In this document: positions 28,292-50,162 of the stretch, piece after piece
Numbering within the stretch: position 1 is the first letter of the stretch
Layout: each line of letters opens with the position of its first letter
Assembly (NCBI RefSeq): GCF_943181415.1
Contig: NZ_CALPBZ010000001.1
Location: 1,426,001 to 1,490,000 of the forward strand
Direction: 5' to 3'
Source: Microbacterium sp. Marseille-Q6648
GTDB taxonomy: Bacteria; Actinomycetota; Actinomycetes; Actinomycetales; Microbacteriaceae
DNA length: 64,000 nt
Program-made: the position numbers and the translations under genes
Notes under the pieces: model-generated
Told to the model about the DNA's origin: nothing
The model's input: the letters and a program-made list of their open reading frames with translations, nothing else
Database searches by the model: none

Positions 28292-29818
28292 TCAGCGGTC
28301 CGCATGCTTCCGCCGGTACGCCGACCACGTGACTGCCCACGTGTCGGGGTCGTCGAGACCGGAGCCGTCGATCTGAGCCACGACCTGGTTGTGCGGCGCC
28401 GTGCGTACGAGTTCGGGATCGCGACGGCCCTCGTCGAGCACGTGCGCGAGCACCGCGATCCACTCGTCGAGATCCTCCTTCGACCACATCTCGCCCGCCT
28501 CGGGTGTGAAGGGCTCGGGGATGATCCACGGCTCGTGCGCGAGCCAGTAGGCGTCGATCCCGAAGTCCGTCATCCGGTTCTGCACATCGATCGTCGTCAG
28601 CCCCGTCTCGGCGGTGTACTCCTCGAGCGAGTACCGCGTCATCTCCATGCGCGGCAGGGCCTTGCCCGGGAACGACATCGTGACACCCGGCAGCGCCATG
28701 AGCTGCTTCTCCATGTAGTTGTTGGCCAGGACCGACAGGTCGGAGGCCTCCCGGAGCCCGTCTGTGCCCATCGCCCGCGTCCAGGAGTACGCCTTGACGA
28801 GCTGCTGGACGTTGCCGAGGAACTCGCGCACCCGACCCACGCTGTCGGCCGGCTCGATGAGGTCGTAGCGCCCGCCGTCTTCGACCACGCGCGGGCCGGG
28901 AAGGAAGCGGGCCAGCTCTTCCGAGCATCCGTACGCTCCGACGGAGGGGCCGTTGCCGCCCTTGGGCACACCGAACGTCTTGTGTAGCATGTACATGCAG
29001 GCGTCGAAGCCCAGGTCGCGCGCACGCAGCCGCGTCATGACCCCGTTGAAGTTCGCGCTGTCGTAGAAGGCGAGCGCGCCGACGCCGTGCACCGCCTCGA
29101 TGAACTCCTTGATGTGGGGGTTGTAGATCCCCATGTCGTCCGGGTTGTTGAGCATGAGCGCCGCCGTGTGCGGGCCGATGACGGCGTTGAGCGCCGCCAC
29201 GGACGGGTAGCCGTCCTCTTCGATCGGGAGCGTGATGACGTCGAAGCCGGCCGCCTTGGCCGTCGCGGGGTTGCACGGGTGGGCCTGTGCCGTCGTCACG
29301 ATCTGCGTGCGCTGGGCCAGCTCGCCGCGTGAGGCGTGGTAGGCCCGCGTCACGACGGCGTGCAGATACGCCGCATCCGCCCCGCCGCCCGGCTGGAAGC
29401 TGAACGCATGCATGCCCGAGAGGTTGCACAGCTGCTCCTCGAGGGAGTGCACGATGCCGAGCAGACCCTGGTAGGTCGCCGGATCCTGACGGGGATGCAC
29501 GGCGGCGACCTCCGATCGTGCCGTGATCTGCTCGTTGACCGTGGGGTTGTGCTTCATGGTGCACGTGCCGAAGAGGCTGATGCCCATCATGCCCATCGTC
29601 TGCTGCGACAGGTGGGTGAAGTGACGCCGCACTTCGTACTCCGCGAGCTCGGGCAGCTCGGCATCCTTCTCCCGCCGCAGCCCGTCGGGGAACGCCGAGA
29701 CGCCGGCTTCGGGCGCCCACGACGCCGGCGGCACGATGCCGCGACGGCCGGGCGCACCGAGCTCGTAGACGACGGGCTCGTCCCAGGACGCGGCGTGGAA
29801 TCTGCGGATGGCGCTCAT
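28292..29818 (-). CDS. gcvPB: Glycine dehydrogenase (decarboxylating) subunit 2-like protein
   Basis: A 508-residue PLP protein of the GcvPB family. The PLP lysine is K280 in MLHKTFGVPKGGNGPSVG, a diverged form of the usual LHKTF-IP-HGGGGPG. THLSQQTMGMMGISLFGTCTMKHNP (positions about 68-92) and FSFQPGGGADAAY correspond to the S-cleft of P-protein. The start overlaps the gcvPA-like stop by four bases. Genes for GcvT, GcvH and lipoylation are absent nearby, and the pair follows an aminotransferase and an AcoX gene. It may therefore be a paralogue acting on a substrate other than glycine or without lipoyl H-protein. It is the last gene of a leftward operon under the 33804-33837 boxes. Confidence 0.85.
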   Translation of the reverse strand: MSAIRRFHAASWDEPVVYELGAPGRRGIVPPASWAPEAGVSAFPDGLRREKDAELPELAEYEVRRHFTHLSQQTMGMMGISLFGTCTMKHNPTVNEQITARSEVAAVHPRQDPATYQGLLGIVHSLEEQLCNLSGMHAFSFQPGGGADAAYLHAVVTRAYHASRGELAQRTQIVTTAQAHPCNPATAKAAGFDVITLPIEEDGYPSVAALNAVIGPHTAALMLNNPDDMGIYNPHIKEFIEAVHGVGALAFYDSANFNGVMTRLRARDLGFDACMYMLHKTFGVPKGGNGPSVGAYGCSEELARFLPGPRVVEDGGRYDLIEPADSVGRVREFLGNVQQLVKAYSWTRAMGTDGLREASDLSVLANNYMEKQLMALPGVTMSFPGKALPRMEMTRYSLEEYTAETGLTTIDVQNRMTDFGIDAYWLAHEPWIIPEPFTPEAGEMWSKEDLDEWIAVLAHVLDEGRRDPELVRTAPHNQVVAQIDGSGLDDPDTWAVTWSAYRRKHADR

Positions 29819-31215
29819 CGCGCGACCACCTCCTCGAGGGCGGAGATCAGTTGTCGGACATCGTCTTCCGAGATCACCTCGGTGACGCAGTACAAGGCGC
29901 AGCCCTCGAGCGAGGGGTGGCTGCCGGTGAGGTCGTGGCCGCCGAGGATGCCGCGCTCGAGCAGTGCCGCGTTGATGTCGGCCACGGTACGACCGGTGTC
30001 CGAGAAGTCCACGACGAACTCCTTGAAGATGCGGTCCGCGTAGCGGACCGACACGGTGGGGATCTCGGCGATGAGCTGCGCCGTGCGGCGCGCGTTGGCG
30101 GCGACCGTCTCGGCGAGCTCCCTCATGCCCGAAGGGCCGAGCAGCGCGAGATAGATCGCGGCGCGCACGGCCCAGAGGTAGACGGAATTGCCCGTCCAGT
30201 CGTTGCCCAGTTCGCGTGCGCCGTAGGAGCTCTGACCGAAGAGCGTCATGCCGAAGGCGCGCTCGCCTTCGCGGATGGTCGGGGCGATGCTGACCTGCAG
30301 CGTCGGGAACTGGCGCGCGTACCGCTCCTCATCGCGGCTGGCGATGAACCCGCCGACGCCGCCGCCGGCGTTGAGGTGGATGCCGAGCGGCTGGATCGAC
30401 CCCACGACGATGTCCGCACCGAAGGCGGCGGGCGAGGCGAGGCCGCCGAGCGAGATCGGGTCGACGCCGACGATCGCCTCGGCGCCCGCTGCATGGGCGG
30501 CATCGACGATGCGGGCGATGTCGTGCTCGATCACACCCCATGCGTTGGGGGTTTCGACGTACACCGCGGCGACGTCGTCCCCCAGGGCGGCATGCAGCGC
30601 CTCGAGCGACACGGTGCCGGACGCCGGGTCGACGGGCACTTCGCGGATCTCGAGCGAACCTCCCAGCTCGCGGTAGCCGGCGTACGTCTCGATGACGAGC
30701 CGGCGCTCCCGGTCGATGTTGTCGGGGAGCACCACGACGCTGCGCCCCGTCATCCGCCCGGCCATGCGCAGCGCGTGTCCGGCCGCACAGCCCCAGCTGT
30801 AGACGGGCAGGCCGACGAACTCGAGGTCCAGGAGCGCACCGAGCTCGGATGCGAACTCGAACCAGGCCTGATTGCGCCCGTGGTCGGAGCTGGGAGTGCC
30901 CCACACCGAGGTCGAGATCTCGGGTCGTCCGACGATCTCGTCGCAGAGCGCGGGCACGTGGTGCTTCCAGTACCCGCCGCCGAGGAACGAGATGTGGGTG
31001 TCGGTGGAGATTCCCCCGCGAAGGCGTCCCTCGAGCATCCGCCGCAGCTCGAACTCCGAGCGGATGCCGGGTACGGACGCCACGTGGTCGTCCGAACGGT
31101 GGTCGCCCGGGATCTGGGCGAAGAGCTCTTCGGCGTCCGAGATGCCGATCGCGTCCAGAAGCGCCTGCCGGCTCCCCTCCGCGGAGTTGGCCATGTACGG
31201 GTGCGATGGACTCAT
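29815..31215 (-). CDS. gcvPA: Glycine dehydrogenase (decarboxylating) subunit 1-like protein
   Basis: A 466-residue GcvPA-type partner of the preceding protein. SFLGGGYWKHHVPALCDEIV (about 77-96) corresponds to the FLGAG-x-YxH-xxP start of P-protein, with TPYQPEIS replaced by GRPEISTSVW. The Asp in VGVDPISLGGL and the SIQPLGIHLNAGGGVGGFIA segment match the family's cofactor side. AGGAGAC precedes ATG 31215. It lacks the active lysine, which lies in subunit 2. The divergence from glycine-type motifs supports a paralogous role. A 14-base tandem repeat lies just upstream. Confidence 0.83.
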   Translation of the reverse strand: MSPSHPYMANSAEGSRQALLDAIGISDAEELFAQIPGDHRSDDHVASVPGIRSEFELRRMLEGRLRGGISTDTHISFLGGGYWKHHVPALCDEIVGRPEISTSVWGTPSSDHGRNQAWFEFASELGALLDLEFVGLPVYSWGCAAGHALRMAGRMTGRSVVVLPDNIDRERRLVIETYAGYRELGGSLEIREVPVDPASGTVSLEALHAALGDDVAAVYVETPNAWGVIEHDIARIVDAAHAAGAEAIVGVDPISLGGLASPAAFGADIVVGSIQPLGIHLNAGGGVGGFIASRDEERYARQFPTLQVSIAPTIREGERAFGMTLFGQSSYGARELGNDWTGNSVYLWAVRAAIYLALLGPSGMRELAETVAANARRTAQLIAEIPTVSVRYADRIFKEFVVDFSDTGRTVADINAALLERGILGGHDLTGSHPSLEGCALYCVTEVISEDDVRQLISALEEVVAR

Positions 31216-31244
31216 GTCTGTCTCCTGCTCTCGCTCATCCTGGG

Positions 31245-31292: not shown

Positions 31293-32411
31293 TCACGCCG
31301 CCGCGTCGACCACGCGGAGGACGGTGCTCTGCCGGGGACCCGTGCGCACGCGACGGTAGCCGAGCAGCGGGTGCGGCGACGACTGCTCGTCGAGGTCGGC
31401 ATCGACGAGGAGCACGGGCGGGAACAGCACCCCGATCTTCTCCTCGGTCGCGATGATGTGGATGCGCGGGGCGCCGATCGCGGCGATGACCCGCGGGCTG
31501 AGCTCCTGATTGCCGCGGCCCAGCAGGAAACCCTGCCCACCCACGACGCCGAGCACGAGGACGGGATGCTCCGCCGCCGAGACGACGGCGAAGAGCCGGT
31601 TCTCCGCCACGTCCTTCTCGACGCTGCCGTCGGGGTGCCGCACATCGACTCCCCGCAGCGTGGGGACGACGCCGAGTCTGTCCGCCACCGCACCCGCCGT
31701 TGCGCCCGGGCCGATGATCCAGGTCGTTCGCGGGTCCGCGGCGGGGACGAGAGACTCGGCGATGGCGCGACCGGCGGCGGCCGAGAATGCGGGCGGCGCT
31801 GCTGCCTTCGCGCCCTGAAGCGGCTCGGCCGAACGGGGTGCGCGGAGCAGGCCGACCACGCCGGCGCCGCCGTCCGCCCCGACGTCGAGGACCTCCGCCG
31901 GCTCGAACGACGCACGACCGTCGACGACGGCCGCGATCAGTCGCCCCGCCGCCTCGGGCGAACGCGCGAACACCTCGGAGTGCATCTTGACCCCCGACGG
32001 CACGCCGACGACGGGAACGTCCTGTGCGATCGCGCGGGCGATGTCCGTCGCCGTCCCGTCACCTCCGGCGAAGACGATGAGGTCCGCGCCGTGGGCGGCG
32101 AACGACCGCGCCGCTGCGACGGTGTGTTCCCGCGTCGTGCGCGCGGGGGGCACGGGCATGTCGAGCACGGTGTGAGGGATGCCGGCATCCGCGAGCGCGT
32201 GGGCGCCCATCGGTCCGGGCGCCGCGACCAGTTCGAGCCCGGAGCCTCCGACGGCGGCCCGGTCGAGTGCCCGAACGAGTCGACGTGCCGCGTGGCCGGC
32301 CCGCACCGCCTCGTCGAAACGGTCCAGCGGAAGCTCATCGGTGCCGTGGAGCGCGCGCGTGCCGCCGAAACCCGCAATCGGGTTCAGCACCACGCCCACA
32401 CGCACCGTCAC
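31293..32411 (-). CDS. ATP-NAD kinase family protein, AcoX-like
   Basis: A 372-residue protein of the NAD kinase-like AcoX group. It opens VRVGVVLNPIAGFGGTRALHG and has the kinase motif FAGGDGTATDIARAI near 105-125, followed by VPSGVKMHSEVFA. AcoX proteins occur in acetoin and amine catabolic operons, but their reaction is unproven. GTG 32411 is four bases after the aminotransferase stop; GTG 32405 is an alternative. Its place between a class III aminotransferase and a GcvP pair suggests a cofactor-related or sugar/keto-acid kinase step in the same pathway. Confidence 0.8.
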   Translation of the reverse strand: MTVRVGVVLNPIAGFGGTRALHGTDELPLDRFDEAVRAGHAARRLVRALDRAAVGGSGLELVAAPGPMGAHALADAGIPHTVLDMPVPPARTTREHTVAAARSFAAHGADLIVFAGGDGTATDIARAIAQDVPVVGVPSGVKMHSEVFARSPEAAGRLIAAVVDGRASFEPAEVLDVGADGGAGVVGLLRAPRSAEPLQGAKAAAPPAFSAAAGRAIAESLVPAADPRTTWIIGPGATAGAVADRLGVVPTLRGVDVRHPDGSVEKDVAENRLFAVVSAAEHPVLVLGVVGGQGFLLGRGNQELSPRVIAAIGAPRIHIIATEEKIGVLFPPVLLVDADLDEQSSPHPLLGYRRVRTGPRQSTVLRVVDAAA

Positions 32412-32415: not shown

Positions 32416-33786
32416 CTACGCGTCGCGCAGTTCTTCGACGGCGCGGTCGAGACCGCGGCGGACGCCGGCGACCATGCGCTCGAGCTCGTCGGGCGTGGTG
32501 ACGAACGGCGGTGAGAACGAGACGGTGTCGGCTGCGGGCAGCGCCCGCGTGATGACACCCTCCGCGAGGGCACCCCGCGTGACGACCCCCGCGAACGCGC
32601 CCTGCGCGGCGAAGGGGCGCAGCGGCTCGCGTGACTCGACGAACTCGACGGCGGCCATGAGTCCGCGCCCGCGGATCTCTCCGACGTGCGGGTGTTCGCC
32701 GAACGCATCGTGCAACAGCTCGTGCAGGAGCCGGCCGTTCTCCGCCACGCGGTCGACGAGCCCCTCGCGTTCGATGATGTCGAGATTCGTCATGGCAGCC
32801 GCTGCCGCGAGCGGGTGCGCCGAATAGGTGTAGCCGTGCCCGAAGCTGCCGTACTTCGCCGATCCCTCCAGGAGCACCTGCCACACCTTCTCACTCACGA
32901 GGACGGCCGAGAGGGGCACGTAAGCGGATGTGATGCCCTTCGCGACCGTCATGAGGTCGGGGCGCATGTCGACCGCGGTGCTGCCGAAGGGCACTCCGAG
33001 GCGGCCGAATCCGGTGACGACCTCGTCCGCGATGAGGAGCACGTCATGCTTGTCGAGGACCGCCTGGATCTTCGGGAAGTAGGTTTCGGGCGGCACGATG
33101 ACACCGCCCGCAGCCATCACGGGTTCGGCGATCATGGCAGCGACCGTCCCGGGTCCCTCGTTGACGATGAATCGGTCGAGTTCGGTCGCCAGGGCCGTGG
33201 CGAACTCGTCGTCGGTCTGCCCCGGCTCGCGCTCCCACAGCCGGTGGGGCGGACGCACGTGGCGGATCATGGGCAGCGGCAGGTCGAATCCGTCGTGCAG
33301 GTTCTGGAGTCCGGTGAGACCGCCGGACAGCACGGTGACGCCGTGGTAGCCCCGGCGGCGCGCGATGATCTTCTTCTTCTGCGGACGACCGAGCACGTTG
33401 TTGTAGTACCAGACGAGCTTGGCCTGGGTGTCGTTCGCGTCCGATCCGGAGTTGCCGTAGAACACCTTGCTCATGGGCACGGGCGCCATCGAGATGAGCC
33501 GCTCCGAAAGACGGGCGGGCAGGTCGGTCCCCATCGACGAGAACGCATGGAAGTACGGCAGCTTCAGCGCCTGCTCGCGCAGGGCCTCGGCCATCTCGGG
33601 ATGCGAGTACCCGACGTTGACGCACCACAGTCCCGCCATCGCGTCGAGATAGTCGCGCCCCGCGCGGTCGGTGACGGTGGAACCCTTCCCCGAGACGATC
33701 GTCATGTGGGGACCGTTCTGGGCGTGAGCCGCCAGGTTGGTCATCGGGTGGAAGAGGAAGTTCCGATCCAGCTCCTCGACGTGCAT
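32416..33786 (-). CDS. Class III (omega-type) aminotransferase
   Basis: A 456-residue fold-type I aminotransferase. Marks are FYGNSGSDANDTQAKLVWYY (about 109-128), the omega-transaminase version with SDAND, the cofactor Asp in LLIADEVVTGFGRLG and the PLP lysine K283 in TVAKGITSAYVPL. Homologues use putrescine, beta-alanine or taurine with pyruvate as acceptor. The start at ATG 33786 is preceded by AAAGG; the in-frame extension to 33837 would run through the operator boxes and is rejected. It heads the leftward aminotransferase-AcoX-GcvPA-GcvPB operon and is divergent from an aldehyde dehydrogenase, so amine to aldehyde to acid is a likely sequence. Confidence 0.88.
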   Translation of the reverse strand: MHVEELDRNFLFHPMTNLAAHAQNGPHMTIVSGKGSTVTDRAGRDYLDAMAGLWCVNVGYSHPEMAEALREQALKLPYFHAFSSMGTDLPARLSERLISMAPVPMSKVFYGNSGSDANDTQAKLVWYYNNVLGRPQKKKIIARRRGYHGVTVLSGGLTGLQNLHDGFDLPLPMIRHVRPPHRLWEREPGQTDDEFATALATELDRFIVNEGPGTVAAMIAEPVMAAGGVIVPPETYFPKIQAVLDKHDVLLIADEVVTGFGRLGVPFGSTAVDMRPDLMTVAKGITSAYVPLSAVLVSEKVWQVLLEGSAKYGSFGHGYTYSAHPLAAAAAMTNLDIIEREGLVDRVAENGRLLHELLHDAFGEHPHVGEIRGRGLMAAVEFVESREPLRPFAAQGAFAGVVTRGALAEGVITRALPAADTVSFSPPFVTTPDELERMVAGVRRGLDRAVEELRDA

Positions 33787-33906: not shown

Positions 33907-35376
33907 ATGACGACCACCCGTTCCGAGCTGCTCGCGAGCGATCTCCTGCGCACTCAGCTCTATTACGACGGACAGTGGCGAGACGGGTCAACGGGTGACC
34001 GCCACCCCGTCACCGATCCCGCCACGGGCGAGGAGATCGCGCAGGTCGCGATCGCGACGGCGGAGGACGTCGAGGCCGCCGTCGAGGCTGCCGCGGTTGC
34101 GTTCAAGACCTGGTCGAAAGTGCCCGCTCCGCAGCGCTCGCGCATCCTGCGGCGCTGGTACGACCTCGTCGTCGAACGCGCGGACGACCTCGCCGAGATC
34201 CTCACCGCCGAGCAGGGCAAGCCCCTCGCCGAGGCGCGCGCCGAGGTCCTCTACGGCGCCGGCTTCATCGAGTGGTTCGCCGAAGAGGCCAAGCGGCTCT
34301 ACGGCGAGGTCATCCCCACCAACAACCCCGATCGGCGCATGCTCACGACCCGCACCGCCGTCGGCGTCACCGCCGCGATCACGCCGTGGAACTTCCCCGC
34401 GGCGATGATCCTCCGCAAGGCGTCCCCGGCTCTCGCGGCCGGCTGCACGATGATCATCAAGCCCGCGAGCGAGACGCCGCTCACGGCCTTCGCCCTCGTC
34501 GCGCTCGCCGAAGAGGCCGGCATCCCCGCCGGCGTGCTCAGCGTCGTCAACGGTTCCGGCCCGGTCATCGGCGGCGTGCTCACGAGCCACGAGCTCGTGC
34601 GCACCATCAGCTTCACGGGGTCGACCGAGGTCGGCCGGATGCTGATGGCGCAGTCGGCCGGCACGATCAAGCGGCTCGCGCTGGAGCTCGGCGGCAACGC
34701 GCCGCTCATCGTCTTCGACGACGCCGATCTCGACAACGCGGTCAAGGGCGCCATGGACTCGAAGTTCCGCAATGCGGGCCAGACGTGCGTGTGCGCGAAC
34801 CGCATCATCGTTCAGGAGGGCATCCACGACGCGTTCGTCGAGGCCCTTTCGCGCGAGGTCGCGAAGCTGCGCGTCGGGGACGGCCGCGAGCCCGGGACGA
34901 CGCAGGGCCCGCTCATCTCGCGCTCGGCCGTCGAGAAGGTCGAGTCGCACATCGCGGACGCGACGGCCAAGGGCGCGCGCATCGTGTCCGGTGGCGGAGT
35001 GAGCGAGCTCGGGGGCACGTTCTTCGAGCCCACGCTCCTCGTGGGCGCGACCGCCGACATGCGCGTCGCGACCGAGGAGACCTTCGGCCCCCTCGCGCCG
35101 GTGTTCAAGTTCTCGACCGAGGAGGAGGCGATCGCGCTGGCGAACGACACCGAGTTCGGTCTCGCCGGCTACTTCTTCAGCCGCGACATCGGCCGCATCA
35201 CCCGCGTCGCGGAGGCTCTCGAGGTGGGCGTCGTCGGCGTCAACACGGGCCTCATCTCCTACGAGGGGGCGCCGTTCGGCGGCGTGAAGCAGTCGGGCAT
35301 CGGCCGCGAAGGCTCCCTCCACGGCATCGAGGAGTACACCGACCTGAAGTACATCTGCATCGAGGGCATCCTGTGA
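33907..35376 (+). CDS. NAD(P)-dependent aldehyde dehydrogenase, succinate-semialdehyde type
   Basis: A 489-residue aldehyde dehydrogenase of the GabD class. Catalytic E260 is in LALELGGNAP and the nucleophile C294 in NAGQTCVCANR; NAD contacts include ITPWNFP (158-164) and FTGSTEVGR. It would oxidise succinate semialdehyde or a related semialdehyde acid, for example 2-oxoglutarate semialdehyde, to the diacid. GAGGG precedes ATG 33907. It is the first gene of a rightward unit with iclR and an old yellow enzyme. The sequence does not decide between semialdehyde substrates; context with a DapA-family enzyme makes a 2-oxo semialdehyde possible. Confidence 0.9.
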   Translation: MTTTRSELLASDLLRTQLYYDGQWRDGSTGDRHPVTDPATGEEIAQVAIATAEDVEAAVEAAAVAFKTWSKVPAPQRSRILRRWYDLVVERADDLAEILTAEQGKPLAEARAEVLYGAGFIEWFAEEAKRLYGEVIPTNNPDRRMLTTRTAVGVTAAITPWNFPAAMILRKASPALAAGCTMIIKPASETPLTAFALVALAEEAGIPAGVLSVVNGSGPVIGGVLTSHELVRTISFTGSTEVGRMLMAQSAGTIKRLALELGGNAPLIVFDDADLDNAVKGAMDSKFRNAGQTCVCANRIIVQEGIHDAFVEALSREVAKLRVGDGREPGTTQGPLISRSAVEKVESHIADATAKGARIVSGGGVSELGGTFFEPTLLVGATADMRVATEETFGPLAPVFKFSTEEEAIALANDTEFGLAGYFFSRDIGRITRVAEALEVGVVGVNTGLISYEGAPFGGVKQSGIGREGSLHGIEEYTDLKYICIEGIL

Positions 35377-35419: not shown

Positions 35420-36217
35420 ATGACCGACATCGACAGCGATCGCAGGTCTGGCGAGTTCATCCAGTCCCTCGACCGGGGACTGGCCGTCGTCCGGGCGTTC
35501 TCGAACGAGCGCGACCTGCTCTCGCTCGCGGACGTCGCCAAGGTGACCGGACTCAGTCGCGCGTCCGTGCGCCGTGCGCTGCTGACCCTCGAGACGCTCG
35601 GCTACGTGGGCAGCCGGCAGAACCGGTTCTACCTCCGTCCGCGCGTTCTGGACCTGGGCTACGCGTTCCTGTCCTCGTCGTCGAGCATCGACATCACGCA
35701 GGATCATCTGCGCCGCCTCTCGGCCCGCATCGGCGAGTCGGTCTCGGCATGCGAGTACGACGACGGAGATGTCGTCTACGTCGCGCGCGCCGCAGCGGAG
35801 ACGATCATGCCGATCCGGCTGGGTATCGGCAGGCGGCTGCCGGCTTTCTGCACGTCGACGGGTCGGGTGCTCCTGTCGGAGTTCGACGACGATCGGCTCG
35901 ACGCGTACTTCCAGGCCTACCCGCGCGAGAAGCTGTCCCCCGCGACGATCGTCGACGAGCAGGAGCTCCGCGACCGCATCGCCGAGGTGCGCGCACAGGG
36001 CTGGTCGCTGAACAACCAGGAAGTCGACCTCGGCGCGCGCTCCATCGCCGCACCCGTGGTCGGCGCCGACGGCCGCTACGTCAGCGCCGTCAACATCTCG
36101 GTGTCGACGTCGCGCGTATCGGTCGAGCAGCTCCGCGGCGACTACCTCCCGCAGCTCCTCGAGGCGACGGGCCTCATCAGCGCCGACCTCTCCCACCTCA
36201 GCCGCCGTCAGACCTGA
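35420..36217 (+). CDS. IclR family regulator, PcaR/PcaU-like
   Basis: A 265-residue IclR protein. The helix-turn-helix lies at about 30-60 (SLADVAKVTGLSRASVRRAL), and the effector domain spans about 85-260 with GRRLPAFCTSTGRVLLSE. The opening FIQSLDRGLAVVRAFS and the RALLTLETLGYV region match the beta-ketoadipate regulator subfamily (PcaR, PcaU, PobR). It lies between two promoters that carry six PcaR-like GTTCG-N5-CGCAC boxes, so it is the obvious candidate regulator for the whole 28-50 kb region. PcaR-type proteins often activate with a catabolic intermediate as ligand; the ligand here is unknown. Confidence 0.9.
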   Translation: MTDIDSDRRSGEFIQSLDRGLAVVRAFSNERDLLSLADVAKVTGLSRASVRRALLTLETLGYVGSRQNRFYLRPRVLDLGYAFLSSSSSIDITQDHLRRLSARIGESVSACEYDDGDVVYVARAAAETIMPIRLGIGRRLPAFCTSTGRVLLSEFDDDRLDAYFQAYPREKLSPATIVDEQELRDRIAEVRAQGWSLNNQEVDLGARSIAAPVVGADGRYVSAVNISVSTSRVSVEQLRGDYLPQLLEATGLISADLSHLSRRQT

Positions 36218-37360: not shown

Positions 37361-37687
37361 TCAGTGACCGCGCGCCGGGTCCGACGCCGCGGTGGGTTCC
37401 GCACCCTCCTGGTGGGCGACGGTCATCCCCTCGCGCACGAAGGTGACGCACGTCCGTGTCTGCGGCACCCCGTCGACGACCATGACGCAGTCGAAGCACA
37501 CGCCCATGCCGCAGTAATAGCCACGGGCATCCTTGTTCTCGGTGCGTCGCAGGCCCAGGCCGCGGTCGGCCATGACGGCCGCCGCGACGCTCTCGCCCTC
37601 GTACGCCTCCGCGGGGCGGCCGTCGATGACGATCTCGACGCGTCGTCCGCGCTCGAGGCCGTGCCCGGGCACCCTCCCCGCGCTCAT
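37361..37687 (-). CDS. (2Fe-2S)-binding small subunit, HcnA/SoxA-N-like
   Basis: A 108-residue ferredoxin-like protein. The plant-type [2Fe-2S] cysteines are C59, C64, C67 and C80 in YYCGMGVCFDCVM and RTC. The EIVIDGRPAEAYEGESVAAAVMA region is typical of the small subunit of HCN synthase, opine oxidase and D-hydroxyproline dehydrogenase. The start overlaps the DapA-family stop by four bases. It should form the electron-transfer subunit of the fused flavoprotein two genes upstream. It is the last gene of the leftward block. Confidence 0.87.
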   Translation of the reverse strand: MSAGRVPGHGLERGRRVEIVIDGRPAEAYEGESVAAAVMADRGLGLRRTENKDARGYYCGMGVCFDCVMVVDGVPQTRTCVTFVREGMTVAHQEGAEPTAASDPARGH

Positions 37688-42226: not shown

Positions 42227-42300
42227 GGTGTTCTCCATTCGATGTGACTTCGGGATTGCGGAGGTGATGCCGGAGGGGGAAAAGCGATGGCGGGATGCCG

Positions 42301-43077
42301 TCACTTGGGCGTGTAGAGGGTGCCGGTCGCGGGGGTGACCGCCTTGATGCGCCCCGCAAGGGCGTCGACCGTTCGGCGCTGACGCGCACGCAGGGTGCGA
42401 CCGACGATCCCGAGCGGAGGCCGGACGTACGCGCCCTCGATGAGCCGGAAGACGAGGTCGATCGCGAACGCGGCGAGCACGTAGATGATCGCGGCCGCGG
42501 TGTAGAGGACGAACGGCTGGAACGTCGTCGCGACGAGGTTCTGGGTGACGCGGACCACTTCGAGCAGGCCGATGACGGTGAAGGTCGAGGTGTCCTTGAC
42601 CATGCCGATGAACATGCTGCCGATGTTGGGGAGCGCGATCTTGATCGCCTGCGGCAGGGTGACCGAGAAGAAGATCTGCGACGACCGCATGCCCAGGGCC
42701 CAGCCCGCCTCGGTGTGACCGGCGGGCACGGCCTGAAGCGCCGAGCGGAAGATCTCCGCGAAGAAGGCGCTGTACAGAAGCGAGAGCGCGATGACGCCGG
42801 CCTGGAAGACGGTGAACCGCACCCCGAGCAGCAGGGCGAGACCGAAGTACACCCAGATGACGCTCACGAGGGCGGGGACGCCGCGGAAGATGTTGATGTA
42901 GGCCGACGCGAGCCAGTTGACGGGCTTGGGCGCCGAGCGCAGCACGGCGAGGAGGAGCCCGAAGACGAGCGAGATCGCCAGGCCCACGATGGCGACCGAG
43001 AAGGCCGTCCACAGGCCGGAGAGGAGCGCATCGCGGTTGTCCCAGATGAGACTCCAGTCGTAGTCGAGGATCGACAT
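42301..43077 (-). CDS. Amino acid ABC transporter permease
   Basis: A 258-residue HisM-type permease with five predicted membrane helices. The EAA loop is AGWALGMRSSQIFFSVTLPQAIKIALPN, shown here as family positions about 131-158. An extension of some 35 Arg-rich residues after the last helix is longer than usual. The ATG shares one base with the ATPase stop. A homodimer would form the channel, since no second permease gene is present. Confidence 0.9.
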   Translation of the reverse strand: MSILDYDWSLIWDNRDALLSGLWTAFSVAIVGLAISLVFGLLLAVLRSAPKPVNWLASAYINIFRGVPALVSVIWVYFGLALLLGVRFTVFQAGVIALSLLYSAFFAEIFRSALQAVPAGHTEAGWALGMRSSQIFFSVTLPQAIKIALPNIGSMFIGMVKDTSTFTVIGLLEVVRVTQNLVATTFQPFVLYTAAAIIYVLAAFAIDLVFRLIEGAYVRPPLGIVGRTLRARQRRTVDALAGRIKAVTPATGTLYTPK

Positions 43078-43880
43078 CACATCACCGCCCGCAGGAATTC
43101 GCGCGCACGGTCGCTCGTGCAGTTGTCGTAGAACCCGCGCGGACCCGATTCGACGATGCGCCCGTCCTCCATGAAGACGTTGAGATCGCCGACCTCCTTC
43201 GCGAAGCCGAGCTCGTGCGTGACGACGACCATGGTCATCCCGGTCTCGGCCACCTCGCGCATTGTCTTGAGCACCTCGCCGACCAGCTCGGGATCGAGTG
43301 CGGAGGTGGGCTCGTCGAAGAGCATCACCTCGGGGTCGAGGGCCAGCGCGCGAGCGATGGCCACGCGCTGCTGCTGACCGCCGCTCAGCTCTGCCGGATA
43401 GTTCGCCGCCCGGTCGATCAGCCCGACGCGTCGGAGGGTGATGGCGGCCTTCTCGCGTGCCTTCTGCCTGCTCATGCGCTGCACCTTGCGCAGCGGGAGC
43501 GCCACGTTGTCGAGCGCGCACAGGTGCGGGAAGAGGTTGAACTGCTGGAAGACCATCCCCACGCGCCGGCGCAGCTCGAGGCGACCCCCGCGCTTGACCC
43601 CGGATTCGCCCGGAAGCCCCGGCCCGAACTCGACACCGTCGACCTTGAGCGACCCGGAGTCGGGCTCGGCCAAGAGGTTGATGCTGCGCAGCACCGTGGA
43701 CTTGCCGGAGCCGGAGGGACCGAACAGCACGACGTGCTGACCGCGCTCGATCGTGAGGTCGATGTCGAAGAGCACTTGCGTCTTGCCGTAGGTCTTGTTG
43801 ATGCCGCGCAGCGCGATGAGCGGCTGACCGAGCGTCCCCGCGGACGCGGCGCCGTCGGCGGCGAGCGTATGCCGGGTCAC
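43077..43880 (-). CDS. Amino acid ABC transporter ATP-binding protein
   Basis: A 267-residue ATPase of the GlnQ/HisP family. Walker A is GPSGSGKST, the signature LSGGQQQRVAIARAL, and Walker B VMLFDEPTSALDPE. A short N-terminal extension precedes the domain. The start is GTG 43880, overlapping the VOC gene stop by four bases. It completes the importer with the SBP and permease genes that follow. Confidence 0.92.
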   Translation of the reverse strand: MTRHTLAADGAASAGTLGQPLIALRGINKTYGKTQVLFDIDLTIERGQHVVLFGPSGSGKSTVLRSINLLAEPDSGSLKVDGVEFGPGLPGESGVKRGGRLELRRRVGMVFQQFNLFPHLCALDNVALPLRKVQRMSRQKAREKAAITLRRVGLIDRAANYPAELSGGQQQRVAIARALALDPEVMLFDEPTSALDPELVGEVLKTMREVAETGMTMVVVTHELGFAKEVGDLNVFMEDGRIVESGPRGFYDNCTSDRAREFLRAVM

Positions 43881-44839
43881 GCGCGCACCTCGGTGACGCT
43901 GACGTACAGGCCGTCCGGGTCGCGGAAGTAGGCGTACCGCCAGGTGCGCCCGCCCTCCATCCGGATCTCGTGCGGCTCGCCCACGAGGTCCACGCCGATC
44001 GAATCGAGATACGCGATCGCGAGGTCGAGGTTCCGCGCGCCGATCGAGAACTCGAAGGTGCCGAGGTGCCCCCATTCCCCGCGCATGTCCGGCCCGGCCG
44101 GTGTCTGCTCGACGGGCTCGAGCGACCCGCCGTGCGGGCTCATCAGCAGCATCATCCGCTGGCTCGGCGGCTGGCGGCCGACGTCGAGGAACCACTGGTT
44201 CATCGGCTCGTTCACGCCCGCCATGTCGAAGAGCTTCGCGGTGAACCCCAGGGAGCGGTAGAACGCCTCGGTGCGGTCGGAGCTGCCGACCCCGAACGCG
44301 ACGTGGTTGACGCCTTGCGGACCGTCGGGGTAGGGCCACCCCGACTCCAGCGAGCGCCATTCGATGAACTCGATCTTGGCGCCGTCGGGGTCCTCGACAT
44401 AGGAGAGGCCGCAGTGGGTGTCGTAGGGCTCGAGGATCTGGTCGTTCGGCTCCATGAGCACCGTGTGGCCGTCGGCGACGAGACGCTCGTGGAAGTCCTC
44501 GTAGGACTGCACGTGGATGCAGACCTCGCAGATGCCGGGCTCCCCGTAGGCGAAGCCCTCGGGAAGCGGCGGCTGCGGCCGGTTCGTGATCTGGACGAGC
44601 TTGATCCCGGAGCGTCCCAGCACGGTCGGATGCGCGCTGCGCAGGTACACGACGCGCGCTTCGGTCGCCTCGTGCCCGGTCAGCGCCTCGATCCCGCCCA
44701 GGGGGCCGGTGTAGTCGAAGGCGACGTCGACGAAGCCCAGGTCGCCGTAGAACCGCAGAGATGCGTCCATGTCGGAGACGCCGATGCCGATGTGGTCGAG
44801 CCCCAGGAGGGTTCCGAACCGGTAGTCAGGTGCGTTCAT
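43877..44839 (-). CDS. Two-domain VOC protein, hydroxyphenylpyruvate dioxygenase-like
   Basis: A 320-residue VOC protein with two modules (about 10-140 and 170-315). Candidate metal ligands are the His in LGLDHIGIGVSD, the His in VNHVAFGVGS and acidic residues in IEFIEW and YVSVTEV. The shape is that of extradiol or 4-hydroxyphenylpyruvate dioxygenases, but the length is shorter than HPPD. It is the first gene of the leftward transporter-oxidase block and starts 73 bases from the cluster of four IclR-type boxes. The reaction is unknown; oxygenation or isomerisation of a pathway intermediate is possible. Confidence 0.8.
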   Translation of the reverse strand: MNAPDYRFGTLLGLDHIGIGVSDMDASLRFYGDLGFVDVAFDYTGPLGGIEALTGHEATEARVVYLRSAHPTVLGRSGIKLVQITNRPQPPLPEGFAYGEPGICEVCIHVQSYEDFHERLVADGHTVLMEPNDQILEPYDTHCGLSYVEDPDGAKIEFIEWRSLESGWPYPDGPQGVNHVAFGVGSSDRTEAFYRSLGFTAKLFDMAGVNEPMNQWFLDVGRQPPSQRMMLLMSPHGGSLEPVEQTPAGPDMRGEWGHLGTFEFSIGARNLDLAIAYLDSIGVDLVGEPHEIRMEGGRTWRYAYFRDPDGLYVSVTEVRA

Positions 44840-45017: not shown

Positions 45018-45809
45018 TTGACGCACGTGGATCCGCAGGGCGCCGACACGTCGGCGACAGCGCCCTCATCGCGCCCGCTCGCGGGTCGGCGCTTTCTGGT
45101 CACGGGCGGGGCACGGGGACTCGGCGCCGCCATCGTCGAAGCGCTGGCCGCGCAGGGGGCGCGAGGGGCGATCATCGACCTCCATCCGCCGGCGTCACCC
45201 GCTCCGTGGCCGACCGTGAGCGCCGACGTGACCGATGAGCAGGCGATGGATGCCGCGGTGAGCACTCTGACGAACGACGACGTCCCGTTCGACGGACTCA
45301 TCGCCGCCGCCGGCGTCGTACCGTCCTGGCACTCCCCCGAGACCGTCGATCTCGATGACTTCGACCGGACGATGTCGGTGAACGTGCGCGGCGTGGTGGC
45401 GGCTATCAGGAGTGTCGCCCCCGCCATGCCCGACGGCGGCACGATCGTCGTGATCGGCTCGCTGAACTCGTGGAAAGCCGATCCGCACCTCCTCTCCTAT
45501 GTGGCGAGCAAGCACGCTCTACTCGGCGTCGTGCGCTCGTCGGCGCTGGCGCTCGGCCGTCGGGGCATCCGCGTGAACGCCGTCGCTCCGGGACCGGTCG
45601 AGACCGAAGCGCTGCTGGGGCGGATCGACAGCCGCGCAGCCCTCACCGGCCTCGACCGGGAGTCCGCGCTCGCGCGAGCCGCCGAGGCCACCGCACTCGG
45701 GCGGCTGGCCACGGCTCAGGATGTGGCCGAGGCGGCGCTCTTCCTCTCGTCTCCGGCTTCGAAAGCGATCACCGGCCACCTTCTGCCCGTCGACGGCGGA
45801 ATGCTCTGA
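45018..45809 (+). CDS. Short-chain dehydrogenase/reductase, first of pair
   Basis: A 263-residue classical SDR. The NAD-binding motif TGGARGLG is at 29-36 and the catalytic residues are S148, Y161 and K165 (SYVASKHALLG). The acidic residue after beta-2 (IIDLHPP) suggests preference for NAD over NADP. It starts at TTG 45018. It is the first gene of the rightward block and precedes a second SDR by 11 bases. It should oxidise or reduce an alcohol/keto intermediate; the substrate is not known. Confidence 0.87.
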   Translation: MTHVDPQGADTSATAPSSRPLAGRRFLVTGGARGLGAAIVEALAAQGARGAIIDLHPPASPAPWPTVSADVTDEQAMDAAVSTLTNDDVPFDGLIAAAGVVPSWHSPETVDLDDFDRTMSVNVRGVVAAIRSVAPAMPDGGTIVVIGSLNSWKADPHLLSYVASKHALLGVVRSSALALGRRGIRVNAVAPGPVETEALLGRIDSRAALTGLDRESALARAAEATALGRLATAQDVAEAALFLSSPASKAITGHLLPVDGGML

Positions 45810-45820: not shown

Positions 45821-46579
45821 ATGGCGGCACTCGAAGGGCGCACAGCTCTCATCACAGGCGTCTCAGGCGCGATCGGCGGAGAACTGGCCCGCGTCTTCGG
45901 CCGCGAGGGCGCGAAGGTGATCGGCACGTATCGGAGCCGACGCGAGGCGGCCGAGGCGGCCCTGGCGGGCATCCCCGGGGAACGCCGGACGCTCCTGCAG
46001 GCGGGGTTCGGCGGCGGCGACAGCGCTCGTGACCTGTGGACACGCGCTCTCGAGCAGGGTGACGTCGACACCGTCGTCGTGAACGCCGCCGCCATGGCGT
46101 CGACGCCGCTCGTCGGCGACGACGCCGAATGGGATGCCGGCTGGCAGCGTTCTCTGCAGGTGAACGTCATCGCCGCGTCAACGCTCATGAGAGAGGCGGC
46201 GAGCGCGTTCGCCGAGCGTCAGCGCGGTTCCATCATCGCGGTCTCGAGCTGGGCGGCGGAGCAGGGCAGCCGCATCCCCGACCTGGGCGGGTACGCGGCC
46301 TCCAAGGCCGCGCTGCGCAACTTCGCCCAGACCCTCGCCCGCGCCTACGCGCGATCGGGGGTCCGCGTGTACACGATCGCTCCGGGCGTCGTCGACGGCG
46401 GCATGGGCACGGCCGACCTCGATCCGGATGAGGTGCGCGCCGTTGCGGAAGGACTCGCGATGGGTCAGCACGTCGCCGTTTCGGAGATCGCCGAGCTCGC
46501 CGCGTTCCTCGCATCCGATCGCTGTCCGAGTCTGACCGGATCGACGATCGACCTCAACGGGGCCTCCTACATCCGGTGA
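45821..46579 (+). CDS. Short-chain dehydrogenase/reductase, second of pair
   Basis: A 252-residue SDR with GVSGAIGG (13-20) and catalytic S142/S143, Y158 and K162 (GGYAASKAAL). After beta-2 it has TYRSRREA, the basic pair that favours NADP. It differs from the preceding SDR in cofactor preference. GAAGGAGA precedes ATG 45821. The stop codon lies inside a perfect 8-base-pair hairpin (46573-46597), so some transcripts may end here before the next three genes. Confidence 0.87.
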   Translation: MAALEGRTALITGVSGAIGGELARVFGREGAKVIGTYRSRREAAEAALAGIPGERRTLLQAGFGGGDSARDLWTRALEQGDVDTVVVNAAAMASTPLVGDDAEWDAGWQRSLQVNVIAASTLMREAASAFAERQRGSIIAVSSWAAEQGSRIPDLGGYAASKAALRNFAQTLARAYARSGVRVYTIAPGVVDGGMGTADLDPDEVRAVAEGLAMGQHVAVSEIAELAAFLASDRCPSLTGSTIDLNGASYIR

Positions 46580-46655: not shown

Positions 46656-47672
46656 ATGACTTCACCCCCTCCGCTCGGAACGAGCCCCGCTCCGCATGCC
46701 ACCGAAACGGTCGCGGTGATCGGCGCGGGCAGCATCGGGATCGCGTGGGCCGTCGTCTTCGCCTCAGCGGGCGTGCACGTGCAGATGACCGAGACGCATG
46801 AGGGCGTGCGCGAGAGTGCGCTCGACGAGGTCGAGGCGATGCTGACCGAGCTCTCGGATGCGGGACTCCTCGCCGACCCCGTCGACGTGCTGCGCGCGCG
46901 CGTCACGATGTGCGCGACGCTCGAGGCCGCCCTCGCGGGCGCGGACTTCGTGCAGGAATGCGTCATCGAGGACGTCGACGTCAAGCGGGCGCTCTTCGCC
47001 GAGCTCGATCGGCTGACCGACCGCCGCGTCGTTCTGGCGAGCTCGACATCGACCATCATCGCCTCTCAATTCGCCGAAGACCTCCCGGGGCGCGAGCGCT
47101 GCCTCGTCGTGCATCCCGCGAACCCCCCGTACTTCCTGCGGGTCGCCGAGGTCGTGCCCGCCCCCTTCACGTCGGCCGACGCTGTGGCGGCCGCGACGGA
47201 CCTGCTCACCAGGATCGATCTCACACCCGTCGTCCTCCACCGCGAGATCGAGGGCTTCGCGTTCAACCGCCTCCAGGGGGCCATGCTGCGCGAGGCCTAC
47301 TGCCTCGTGCGCGACGGCGTCATCTCCCCCGGAGACGTCGACACGCTCGTCCGCAAGGGGCTGGGCCTGCGCTGGTCGGTCATCGGCCCCTTCACGACGA
47401 GTGAGCTCAACACCCGGGGCGGGCTGCGGCGCCATGCCGAGGTCCTCGGGCCGGTGTACGCGCGGATCGGGGTGGAGAGGGGCACCGACGACCCCTGGAC
47501 GCCCGAGACGATCGAGCACGTCGCCCATCAGATCGAGCAGCGTCTGCCGCATCCGACGTGGGAGGAGAACGTCCGGGAGCGGGACCTCGCGATGATCCGC
47601 CTCGCGTCGCTCCTGCGCCACTTCGACAATCCGCTCGCCACTCCCGCACCCGCTGTCACCTCGCCTTTGTAA
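46656..47672 (+). CDS. 3-hydroxyacyl-CoA dehydrogenase family protein, L-gulonate/carnitine dehydrogenase-like
   Basis: A 338-residue NAD-dependent hydroxyacid dehydrogenase. The N-terminal VAVIGAGSIGIAWAVVFASA (19-38) binds NAD. The catalytic His is in VVHPANPPYFLRVAEVVP, the form seen in lambda-crystallin/L-gulonate dehydrogenase and carnitine dehydrogenase rather than in fatty-acid oxidation enzymes. QECVIEDVDVK and the C-terminal dimer domain follow. It probably oxidises a 3-hydroxy acid to a 3-oxo acid. The 76-base gap upstream contains a hairpin but no clear promoter. Confidence 0.85.
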   Translation: MTSPPPLGTSPAPHATETVAVIGAGSIGIAWAVVFASAGVHVQMTETHEGVRESALDEVEAMLTELSDAGLLADPVDVLRARVTMCATLEAALAGADFVQECVIEDVDVKRALFAELDRLTDRRVVLASSTSTIIASQFAEDLPGRERCLVVHPANPPYFLRVAEVVPAPFTSADAVAAATDLLTRIDLTPVVLHREIEGFAFNRLQGAMLREAYCLVRDGVISPGDVDTLVRKGLGLRWSVIGPFTTSELNTRGGLRRHAEVLGPVYARIGVERGTDDPWTPETIEHVAHQIEQRLPHPTWEENVRERDLAMIRLASLLRHFDNPLATPAPAVTSPL

Positions 47673-47730: not shown

Positions 47731-48489
47731 GTGAGCGAATCAGCGGATGCCGGGATCCAGGTCGCAGCCTGGTCGATGCTGGGAACCCCCGCGGCGGCCT
47801 CTCTCATGGCGCGCATCGGCGCCGATCTGCTGGTGCTCGACGCGCAGCATGGTCTCTACGACGACGCGGGACTGATCGCCGCGATCCCCGCGGCATCGGC
47901 CGTCCCGGTTCACGTGCGCGTACCCGAGAACAACGCCGCCCTCATCGGTCGCGCCCTCGACGCCGGCGCGACGGGCATCATCGTGCCGATGGTGCAGAAC
48001 GTCGCGGAGGCCATCGCCGCCGCCGCCGCCGCACGCTACCCACCGCTGGGCGAGCGCTCGTGGGGTCCCCTCGCGGCCTACCGAGGTGAATCGACGACGC
48101 CCCCCGACGAGGCGAACGAGAGCGTGTCGTGCGCGGTCATGGTCGAGACCTCGCGCGCGCTGGCCGATGTCGACGCCATCGCGTCCGCTCCGGGAGTCGA
48201 CATGGTGTTCGTCGGACCGTTCGACCTCGCGATCGCCCTCGGCAGGTCCGTGCCCGATCTCCTCGCCGACCACTCGCCCGGGAACCCGCTGGACGCGGTC
48301 GTGGCGGCGTGTCGCCGGGCGGGCACGCGCGCGGGCGCTTTCGCGGGAAGCCTCGAGGCCGCGCGCGCACTCTCGGAGCGCGGCTTCACCACGCTGGCCG
48401 TGGCGGTCGACACCCAGCTGATCTCGGCGGCGGGCACCACGCTCGTCGACGCCGCGCGCGGCATCCGGACGTCTGGCCGGCCCGCATGA
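47731..48489 (+). CDS. HpcH/HpaI family class II aldolase
   Basis: A 252-residue aldolase/citrate lyase-type protein. Visible catalytic positions are the His of LDAQHGLYDD, the Arg of VPVHVRVPE, and the metal ligands Glu in CAVMVETSRAL and Asp in FVGPFDLAIALG. Family members split 2-oxo-4-hydroxy acids into pyruvate plus an aldehyde. The start is GTG 47731. TAGGCT eight bases upstream looks like a -10, so a nearly leaderless promoter of its own is possible. The stop overlaps the DUF885 start by four bases. Confidence 0.87.
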   Translation: MSESADAGIQVAAWSMLGTPAAASLMARIGADLLVLDAQHGLYDDAGLIAAIPAASAVPVHVRVPENNAALIGRALDAGATGIIVPMVQNVAEAIAAAAAARYPPLGERSWGPLAAYRGESTTPPDEANESVSCAVMVETSRALADVDAIASAPGVDMVFVGPFDLAIALGRSVPDLLADHSPGNPLDAVVAACRRAGTRAGAFAGSLEAARALSERGFTTLAVAVDTQLISAAGTTLVDAARGIRTSGRPA

Positions 48490-50162
48490 GCTCGCTCGTC
48501 CGCGACATCGCCGACGAGTACATGCATGCTCTCGCGGTGCGTGAGCCCTCCGCCGCGCTCGCCCTCGGCCGTCCGAGCCCCGCGCGCGCACTCGCGGACC
48601 TCTCGCCCGAGTGGCTCGAAGAGCGGTACGCCCTGCAGGGCGGCGTGCTCGATCGCCTCGCGGCCCTCCCCGCCGACGCGCCGGACGCAGTCCTGCGCGC
48701 GGCCCTCGCCGAGCGACTCGCCGGGGACCGCGCCCTGTTCGACACCGGTTTCACGATGCGGCTGGTGGCCGGGCTCGCGACCCCCGTGCACCTCGTCCTC
48801 GGAAGCATCGAAGGTCTCGCGATCGGCGACGACGCCGCCGGGCGGGCCGTCCTCGAGCGGCTCGAGGCCGGACCGGCGGCCGTGCGCGAATACATGCGGT
48901 CGCTCGCGCGGGCGCGCGACCTCGGCAGAGCCGGCCGGTTCACGGGTACGGGCGTCGCATCCGCGCGCCAGATCCGGATCCTCGCCGATCAGGTGGCGGG
49001 CTGGGTGCGCAGCGACTACTTCGCCGGGATCGAGCGCGCAGTCGATCTGTCCCCGGCAGTCGCGGCACGTGCGGACGCCGCAGCGGCCGCCATGACGGCG
49101 GCGCTGTCCGAGCTCGTCGGGTTCCTCCGCGACGAGCTCCTGGCCGACGCCGCCGAGGACGACGCCATGGGCGAGGCCGTCTACGCGACGATGGCCGCGA
49201 GCATGCTCGGCTCGCCGATCGACCTCGATGAGGTCTACGGGTTCGGCTGGAGCGAGCTCGAGCGGCTCGTCGCCCTCTCACGCGAACTGGCCGAACAGCT
49301 CGGCGGATCGGGGGGCGACCCCGTCCGGTCGGCCGCCGCTCTCCTCGACGCCGACCCGCGCTACCGGCTCGAGGGCATCGAAGCGATCGTGACGTGGCTG
49401 CGCAGGCGGGTCGCCGAGAGCGTCGACGTGCTGGGGGCCGAGGCGTTCGACCTGCCGCCGACGATCGACGATGTCGAGTGCGTCGTCTCGCAGGCGTCGG
49501 CGGGCGTCGTGTACTACACGCCCGCGCCGCCCGACGGCACGGTCCCGAGCCGCATCGTGTGGACGGTCCCGAGCGGCCTGCCCGTCGCCGCGACGTGGCA
49601 GGAGGTCACGAGCGTCCACCACGAAGGGCTCCCGGGCCACCACCTCGAGCACACGGTCAATCGCGCGAACGCCGACCTGCACCCGTGGCAGCGGTACCTG
49701 TGCGAGGTCCACGGCTTCGCCGAGGGGTGGGCGCATTACGCCGAGGCCCTGTCCGACGAGCTCGGCCTCATCCGCGATCCCGCCGAGCGTCTCGGCATGG
49801 TCCTCGGCCAGATCTGGAGGTCCGTGCGCATCGTCGCCGACATCGGCATGCACACCGGACGACCGATACCGCCGACGACGCTCACCGCCGAGACCTCGTG
49901 GACGCCCGCGCTCGCCCGCACCTTCCTCGAGGACTACGCCATGGTCGAGCCCGACCTCGCGCGCTTCGAAGTCGACCGCTATCTGGGCTACCCCGGGCAG
50001 GCCCTCGCGTTCAAGGTCGGCGCCAAGCTGTGGTCGGAGGCGCGGGAAGCGTGGCGCGCGCGCCGCGGCCCGGATGCGCGACTGGCGGACTTCCACCGCG
50101 AGGCGCTCGCGCTCGGGCCGATGGGCCTCGCGCCGCTGCGCGCACTCCTCCTCGCCGACTGA
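48486..50162 (+). CDS. DUF885 family putative metallohydrolase
   Basis: A 558-residue DUF885 protein. The family motif HHEGLPGHH at 378-386 resembles a zinc metallopeptidase HExxxH-like site, with a later acidic segment EGWAHYAEAL (about 409-418) that could supply a further ligand. No signal peptide is visible, so it should act in the cytoplasm. It may hydrolyse an amide or peptide form of the pathway substrate. It is the last gene of the rightward block, coupled to the aldolase by a 4-base overlap. A second DUF885 gene sits at 63358-64000. Biochemical proof for this family is sparse. Confidence 0.8.
   Translation: MSSLVRDIADEYMHALAVREPSAALALGRPSPARALADLSPEWLEERYALQGGVLDRLAALPADAPDAVLRAALAERLAGDRALFDTGFTMRLVAGLATPVHLVLGSIEGLAIGDDAAGRAVLERLEAGPAAVREYMRSLARARDLGRAGRFTGTGVASARQIRILADQVAGWVRSDYFAGIERAVDLSPAVAARADAAAAAMTAALSELVGFLRDELLADAAEDDAMGEAVYATMAASMLGSPIDLDEVYGFGWSELERLVALSRELAEQLGGSGGDPVRSAAALLDADPRYRLEGIEAIVTWLRRRVAESVDVLGAEAFDLPPTIDDVECVVSQASAGVVYYTPAPPDGTVPSRIVWTVPSGLPVAATWQEVTSVHHEGLPGHHLEHTVNRANADLHPWQRYLCEVHGFAEGWAHYAEALSDELGLIRDPAERLGMVLGQIWRSVRIVADIGMHTGRPIPPTTLTAETSWTPALARTFLEDYAMVEPDLARFEVDRYLGYPGQALAFKVGAKLWSEAREAWRARRGPDARLADFHREALALGPMGLAPLRALLLAD

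Follow-up and report, generated by a model that had tools for sequence, protein, structure and literature searches.

Several described systems lie close to the gene cluster considered here. The split P-protein of glycine cleavage (GcvPA/GcvPB; 1wyt) is a two-subunit pyridoxal 5'-phosphate (PLP) enzyme. In acetoin (aco) clusters, the NAD-kinase-like AcoX accompanies a two-subunit C-C cleaving enzyme consisting of a thiamine pyrophosphate (TPP) E1 with a lipoyl E2. Opine dehydrogenase, D-hydroxyproline dehydrogenase and HCN synthase are built from a small [2Fe-2S] subunit and alpha and beta flavoprotein parts, and 4-aminobutyrate transaminase is paired with succinate-semialdehyde dehydrogenase (SSADH). 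The cluster at positions 28292-50162 of the window (the whole 64,000-nucleotide stretch of Microbacterium sp. Marseille-Q6648 that was analysed, from a genome of 3.49 Mb) combines relatives of all of these in 19 genes arranged in four blocks, and the number of genes, their divergent arrangement and the families named in the original prediction were all recovered. Its core is a triad of a GcvPA-like subunit, a GcvPB-like subunit and an NAD-kinase-like protein. We tentatively read the cluster as a catabolic regulon of the IclR type that handles an imported compound resembling an amino acid, and in which a P-like enzyme would act on a substrate other than glycine; for this reading, in which the substrate and the reaction are predicted from sequence, our confidence stops somewhat short of even.

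The GcvPB-like subunit (28292..29818, minus strand, 508 aa, NCBIfam NF003346) and the GcvPA-like subunit (29815..31215, minus strand, 466 aa, NF001696) match the split P-protein over their full length. The former, classed as PLP-binding, keeps the HKTF motif together with K280, D253 and H180, which we take to be the PLP-site residues, and the pair would be expected to assemble into a PLP enzyme of the alpha/beta kind. Trees were built from triad sequences, 92 for GcvPA and 89 for GcvPB with three loci entering twice, and 12 canonical sequences each; in both, the triad forms a single clade apart from the canonical proteins, with a support of 1.0. The identity of the window's proteins to canonical ones is 22-33% (GcvPA-like) and 27-38% (GcvPB-like), and 39-48% to three triad proteins of the sugar type. 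By their surroundings, triads can be divided into type I, the window's context with an aminotransferase and an aldehyde dehydrogenase, type II, a sugar-type context of seven loci, and type III, nine loci with a clade of their own. Canonical and type I/III sequences have 28 near-invariant positions in common in GcvPA and 58 in GcvPB, the PLP lysine included, whereas at 17 and 31 positions, 48 in total, the residue is near-invariant within either group but differs between the two. The canonical His six residues past the PLP lysine is a Lys (the loop residue Lys286 in the window) in 80 of 82 triad sequences and is retained in 7/7 of the sugar type. The sugar-type loci (L019, L023-L028) also retain more of the canonical P-protein residues and may represent an intermediate form.

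Genomic surroundings separate the pair further from glycine cleavage. No GcvH match was obtained near the triad in 98 loci (lowest E value 0.88, positive control 5e-80; GcvT was not searched). Of four annotated canonical split pairs that were fetched, two (L131 and L134) adjoin both gcvT and gcvH, one (L132) adjoins a piece of gcvT, and one (L135) has neither gene beside it. A canonical P-protein is additionally encoded in all 23 triad genomes checked, the window's included, with G220 and G416 matched in two pieces and G426, G433 and G434 carrying a split pair below the cut-off of the fused model. On the grounds of its own clade, the switched positions, the lack of a nearby GcvH and the coexisting canonical P-protein, an ordinary glycine cleavage system was rejected, and the pair, although of the GcvPA/GcvPB family first named for it, does not resemble the usual glycine-cleavage subunits.

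The third member of the triad (31293..32408, minus strand, about 371 aa with an uncertain start; PF01513, 71.7 bits) had been called AcoX. Like AcoX, it has an NAD-kinase-like sequence with GGDGT and accompanies a two-subunit enzyme of the C-C cleaving kind; unlike AcoX, it is found with a PLP-type partner, and no genes for a TPP E1 or a lipoyl E2 adjoin it in the window's gene list. Its identity is 27% to the protein of L182, confirmed as an aco cluster, and 25% to that of L183, and the acetoin label was rejected on these grounds in favour of a distant cousin. In E. coli, acetoin dehydrogenase activity reportedly required acoX (PMC10943186). Run against 149 Pseudomonas genomes, a hidden Markov model of the triad proteins matched in 26, that of L182 included, but weakly (19-31 bits) and mostly through the GGDGT region. 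No match by sequence was found among solved structures. The structural model has a predicted local distance difference test score of 89.7, and NAD kinase and diacylglycerol kinase are among its best structural matches, not clearly above other folds; because the other-fold chains 3lkv and 3lft score nearly level with NAD kinase and the matches hardly extend into the C-terminal part, we make no claim on the fold from structure.

Relatives of the kinase-like protein occur beside other PLP-related genes. In Pseudomonas (L177, with L152-L176), a middle form, AcoX-b, lies beside a 2-Hacid_dh + DUF3410 gene, presumably PdxB-like, in 19 of 25 short loci; the pairing is confined to one genus and may be inherited linkage, and a connection to vitamin B6 metabolism is possible. 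In Peptoclostridium acidaminophilum (L119, 9992-12068), a relative overlaps a gene whose annotation is that of a PLP enzyme with the class I/II aminotransferase fold, so that the family is paired with a PLP enzyme here too.

When 394 genomes of the class were searched for the kinase-like protein, 12 had it, including that of the window. The regions of about 20 kb from the other 11 contain gcvPA, gcvPB and the kinase-like gene in every case; L018, L020, L021 and L022 add the aminotransferase, the divergent aldehyde dehydrogenase, the 3HCDH-type gene and the oxidase, with importer genes in three of the four and none found in L022, and the remaining seven loci have the different, sugar-type context. 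A GcvPA alignment scan with one genome per species (84,980 species) returned 376 stretches encoding a relative, perhaps including canonical ones, of which the best 80 (at least 50% identity) were kept; the closest are mostly from Microbacterium, at 88-91% identity. In flanks of up to 10 kb, many contigs being shorter, gcvPB was present at all 80 loci and the kinase-like gene at 79, in 75 of these at a distance of 500 bp or less. Further neighbours were the aminotransferase (45), ABC ATPase (43), 3HCDH (42), DapA (39), the second short-chain dehydrogenase/reductase (SDR2, 37), IclR (36), HcnBC (35), aldehyde dehydrogenase (34), permease (31), SDR1 (28), a second oxidase type (27), solute-binding protein (26), [2Fe-2S] protein (17), old yellow enzyme (16) and VOC protein (9), counts in which unrelated members of broad families such as ABC and SDR are to be expected. 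When the 11 and 80 loci are pooled, three are counted twice (L020 = L059, L021 = L067, L022 = L048), so that the pooled counts of 91, 92, 89, 85, 82, 98 and 105 include repeats, the last of them also second cuts of some genomes.

Neither HpcH nor DUF885 was found within these flanks (0 of 80). Because both lie more than 10 kb away in the window, the far side was fetched in seven relatives. Three Microbacterium genomes (L196-L198 together with L029, L032 and L030) have all 19 genes in identical order; four further actinobacteria (L199, L200, L202, and L018 with L201) keep the order less completely, and in G202 the 3HCDH gene adjoins gcvPB. HpcH and DUF885 are not in the 20-kb cuts of the four other relatives, where L202 covers just about 2 kb beyond 3HCDH. 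Being present in three of seven relatives, all Microbacterium, these two genes are therefore not core. The blocks, for which the alternative was that they never co-occur elsewhere, do occur together in other genomes. Two record names in the collection look wrong: 'Planococcus' L031 has 69% GC and gcvPA, gcvPB and aminotransferase genes 88-93% identical to the window's, and 'Bifidobacterium breve' L062 (43% GC) matches the Nanopelagicales locus L060 in its gene content.

Since the gene order recurs and a common box marks both divergent promoter regions, the 19-gene cluster is one regulon. The element CGCAATACGCAC, with at most one mismatch, occurs in the 64 kb at 33807, 44934 and 44952 alone, all within the two divergent promoter regions, compared with 0.20 sites expected and none of 100 shuffles reaching three. 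On the plus strand between the aminotransferase and aldehyde dehydrogenase genes, two operator-like boxes lie 19 bp apart (33805-33818 and, with 3 mismatches, 33824-33837); between the VOC and SDR1 genes, boxes are found at 44913-44926 (plus, 3 mismatches), 44932-44945 (plus) and 44952-44965 (minus). Each region has a weaker second copy 19 bp off (33805/33824; 44913/44932). Looser tests are weaker than the count of CGCAATACGCAC: 14 bases with 3 mismatches gave 7 matches against 3.1 expected, with 3 of 100 shuffles reaching 7, and when stretches of the window were paired at random about 300 times, the number of shared 12-mers was equalled in 4 pairs and that of shared 14-mers in 9. With CGCAWTACGCAC allowed and one mismatch, both promoter regions are boxed in five of the seven relatives (G394, G395, G607, G396, G610), and the box is confined to promoter regions across their fetched stretches; it is absent from the promoter regions of G397, and G202 has a single box, beside VOC.

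Because the boxes occupy 33805-33837, the class III aminotransferase (32416..33786, minus strand; PF00202), whose reading frame opens at 33837, probably starts at ATG 33786, giving 456 aa; this start was revised with the boxes in view, and the whole-window box count is independent of the revision. The IclR gene (35420..36217, plus strand) lies within the cluster, which together with the common box in both promoter regions is as expected of an IclR (PcaR-like) regulon; its PcaR/PcaU/PobR-like class comes from TIGR02431, at 281.3 bits just below the cut-off of 284.75. The IclR protein probably runs the regulon, presumably by binding to the boxes. Order, boxes and conservation together bear out the earlier proposal of one co-regulated catabolic unit with shared boxes in both promoter regions.

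Among solved structures, the aminotransferase is nearest to 5kr6, named 4-aminobutyrate transaminase (504 bits), and the aldehyde dehydrogenase (33907..35376, plus strand; TIGR01780, 700.9 bits, cut-off 646.35) to the SSADH 3jz4 (639 bits); among the best 80 loci, the aldehyde dehydrogenase is accompanied by a transaminase in 34 of 34 cases. Here, unlike in the 4-aminobutyrate transaminase/SSADH pair itself, the two enzymes are embedded with the triad. The names of these nearest chains suggest a gamma-amino acid, and with it a glutamate-like precursor. We propose that the P-like enzyme, detached from glycine cleavage, would break a C-C bond of another amino acid without a lipoyl H-protein, most likely by alpha-decarboxylation. 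The resulting amine would pass to the 4-aminobutyrate-type transaminase and the aldehyde to the succinate-semialdehyde-type dehydrogenase, yielding an acid of the tricarboxylic acid cycle. Through oxidation and cleavage at C-N bonds, the flavin/[2Fe-2S] amine dehydrogenase and the DapA lyase would prepare or divert the substrate. Hydroxyl groups would be oxidised by the SDR and hydroxyacid dehydrogenases, and the kinase-like partner may use ATP to activate the substrate or the enzyme, which is the least certain step. The aldol and decarboxylation steps of the original prediction likewise stay predictions.

Triads of type III have an acyl-CoA ligase in eight of nine loci. In L064 and L111, the latter from Gemmobacter, this ligase is of the PRK08162 kind and occurs with an amino acid permease and an amine oxidase, ligase and oxidase taking the place of the transaminase and aldehyde dehydrogenase; Rhodococcus L112 has an ArgE/DapE-type deacylase. 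Because two distinct amine-to-acid modules accompany the triad, a P-like enzyme forming an amine by decarboxylation would fit. Type II loci have a GH42-cluster gene (7/7), an MGH1-cluster gene (5/7) and an SDR; sugar ABC and GntR genes join them at some loci. On plasmids of Rhodobacterales, the triad has carbohydrate ABC genes near it in L109, L110 and L113, and L109 and L110 also have a gene of the sugar-phosphate-isomerase family. On a haloarchaeal plasmid, annotation groups the kinase-like gene with aminotransferase, DapA, SDR, DUF885 and CoA-transferase genes, and gcvPA/gcvPB lie about 55 kb off; identity is 49-51% between its CoA-transferases and those of L020 and just 31% between its aminotransferase and the window's, and the DapA gave no match on comparison. 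Beside the triad in L097 (7244-8743, by Pfam scan) and L103 (7122-8633, by similarity), an aldo-keto reductase is fused to an L-PSP (RidA-type) domain.

Several observations weigh against the proposed decarboxylation pathway. The seven sugar-type loci show no obvious amine step, and 16 of the 80 loci lack the transaminase as well as the amine dehydrogenase in the fetched stretch, some of these stretches being short; one simple scheme for all loci is therefore hard to maintain. On a plasmid, locus L110 combines the aldehyde dehydrogenase with no transaminase. Moreover, both subunits exceed the NCBIfam equivalog cut-offs (GcvPA, 386.8 against 364 bits; GcvPB, 494.8 against 441), and GcvH is encoded elsewhere in 59 of 60 triad genomes (60 of the genomes of 88 distinct loci), where its use in trans is possible. 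These scores, the GcvH genes and the retained PLP site would suit a pair that is still a glycine decarboxylase, borrowing GcvH and GcvT of the cell in trans to burn glycine released by the pathway. The GcvH count, however, is uninformative on dependence because the background in the class is 142 of 148 genomes, and the canonical P-protein already present, the 48 switched positions, the 98 loci with no GcvH match and the adjacent kinase-like gene at 79 of 80 loci all argue against it; we consider the glycine decarboxylase unlikely, while regarding it as the most serious competitor.

In a second alternative, the cluster would be a variant trans-4-hydroxyproline or opine pathway of dehydrogenase, DapA-type deaminase and semialdehyde dehydrogenase, to which the triad is an add-on. 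The DapA-family lyase (37684..38628, minus strand; PF00701) has an IKD motif with the presumed Schiff-base lysine, and comparisons did not single out a substrate for it. The fused flavoprotein (38666..41362, minus strand, 898 aa; PF07992, PF04324, PF01266) joins an HcnB-type alpha and an HcnC-type (DAO) beta part, with FAD motifs GGGPAG at 14 and GGGIAG at 518 and RTW (R-X-W) at 826 in the beta part. The small [2Fe-2S] subunit (37361..37663, minus strand, start uncertain; PF13510) has just about 100 aa and is of the HcnA/gamma type, its CX4CX2CX11C fitting the gamma motif CX4CX2CX11-12C of opine/D-hydroxyproline dehydrogenases. The source of this motif and of the FAD and R-X-W motifs gives the alpha motif as CXC-X15-20-CX4C (PMC4575208); the alpha part here contains CXC and CX4C at a spacing of 31 and, unlike in those enzymes, is fused to the beta part. 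Among the 80 loci, the flavin dehydrogenase is found in 49 and DapA in 39, 36 of them with the oxidase. Among 105 loci searched, a proline-racemase family gene lies near the triad in L034 and L043, with a weaker third match in L063, and hints that the amino acid of these organisms is cyclic or racemised. Against these stand a search of 14 triad genomes for PF05544 (proline racemase/hydroxyproline epimerase), with a match in six but none in that of the window or in 7 more, and an aldehyde dehydrogenase nearer to SSADH than to alpha-ketoglutarate-semialdehyde dehydrogenase (639 against 392 bits), for which reasons a plain hydroxyproline pathway is weakened. The association of the aldehyde dehydrogenase with a transaminase across the 80 loci argues in the same direction, and the triad is left unexplained; we hold this alternative to be improbable. 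The dehydrogenase type proposed at the outset for C-N oxidation is retained. More doubtful still is a scheme after sphingosine kinase and sphingosine-1-phosphate lyase, in which the kinase-like protein would phosphorylate an amino-alcohol or hydroxy-amino intermediate for cleavage by the P-like enzyme as a lyase.

The importer agrees with the regulon reading, and with the amino-acid type first assigned to it, in both solute-binding protein and permease family. The nearest solved chains of the solute-binding protein (41366..42238, minus strand; PF00497) are reconstructed ancestral proteins, the best match among them, followed mostly by GlnH- and ArtJ-type amino acid binders, a comparison that does not single out a substrate. 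The permease (42301..43077, minus strand) reaches 83.2 bits with TIGR01726 (cut-off 42.2), scanned as the longer open reading frame 42301-43521, and the best NCBIfam model of the ATPase (43077..43880, minus strand; PF00005) is GlnQ, below its cut-off. Since the binding protein falls into the polar amino acid class, what is imported probably resembles an amino acid.

The remaining genes complete the four blocks. One minus-strand block runs from the aminotransferase through the kinase-like gene to gcvPA and gcvPB, and divergent from it are the aldehyde dehydrogenase, IclR and old yellow enzyme family oxidoreductase (36257..37339, plus strand; PF00724) genes. The second minus-strand block comprises a two-domain VOC protein (43877..44839; PF00903), the ATPase, permease, solute-binding protein, fused flavoprotein, DapA and [2Fe-2S] genes. 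Divergent from it on the plus strand follow SDR1 (45018..45809, TTG start; PF13561), SDR2 (45821..46579; PF13561), a 3-hydroxyacyl-CoA-dehydrogenase-like hydroxyacid dehydrogenase (46656..47672; NF004783, 386.3 bits, cut-off 347; nearest solved chain lambda-crystallin 3ado), and the two non-core genes for an HpcH/HpaI-family aldolase (47731..48489; PF03328) and a DUF885 protein (48486..50162; PF05960). Flanking the regulon, a 1218-aa open reading frame with Sortilin-Vps10/BNR matches (53846-57502) adjoins an ABC importer (50188-53922).

While fold and cofactor are known, the regulon is without a found description and the P-like reaction without an assignment. Among the papers listed in a literature search, none gave an account of the triad or the regulon by title or abstract start, in line with the original prediction that no described pathway has this set, although subscription journals were mostly uncovered and the negative is weak. 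We give even weight to the broader proposition that the triad represents a widespread, unrecognised PLP system, in which a P-like pair with a dedicated NAD-kinase-like partner would act on non-glycine substrates without a lipoyl H-protein in amino-acid, acyl-CoA and sugar regulons of Actinobacteria, Proteobacteria and at least one haloarchaeon. Annotation pipelines name the triad proteins glycine dehydrogenase subunits, and models of the genomes of at least 80 species would therefore include a second enzyme of glycine cleavage, which these species probably lack. If the triad catalyses a new reaction, the repertoire of PLP enzymes would grow and a pathway for an amino-acid-like compound would open, one retained even by small actinobacterial genomes (assemblies of 1.2-1.9 Mb, one lake-derived by name). 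The triad also bears on an old puzzle, the role of NAD-kinase-like partners for C-C cleaving enzymes.

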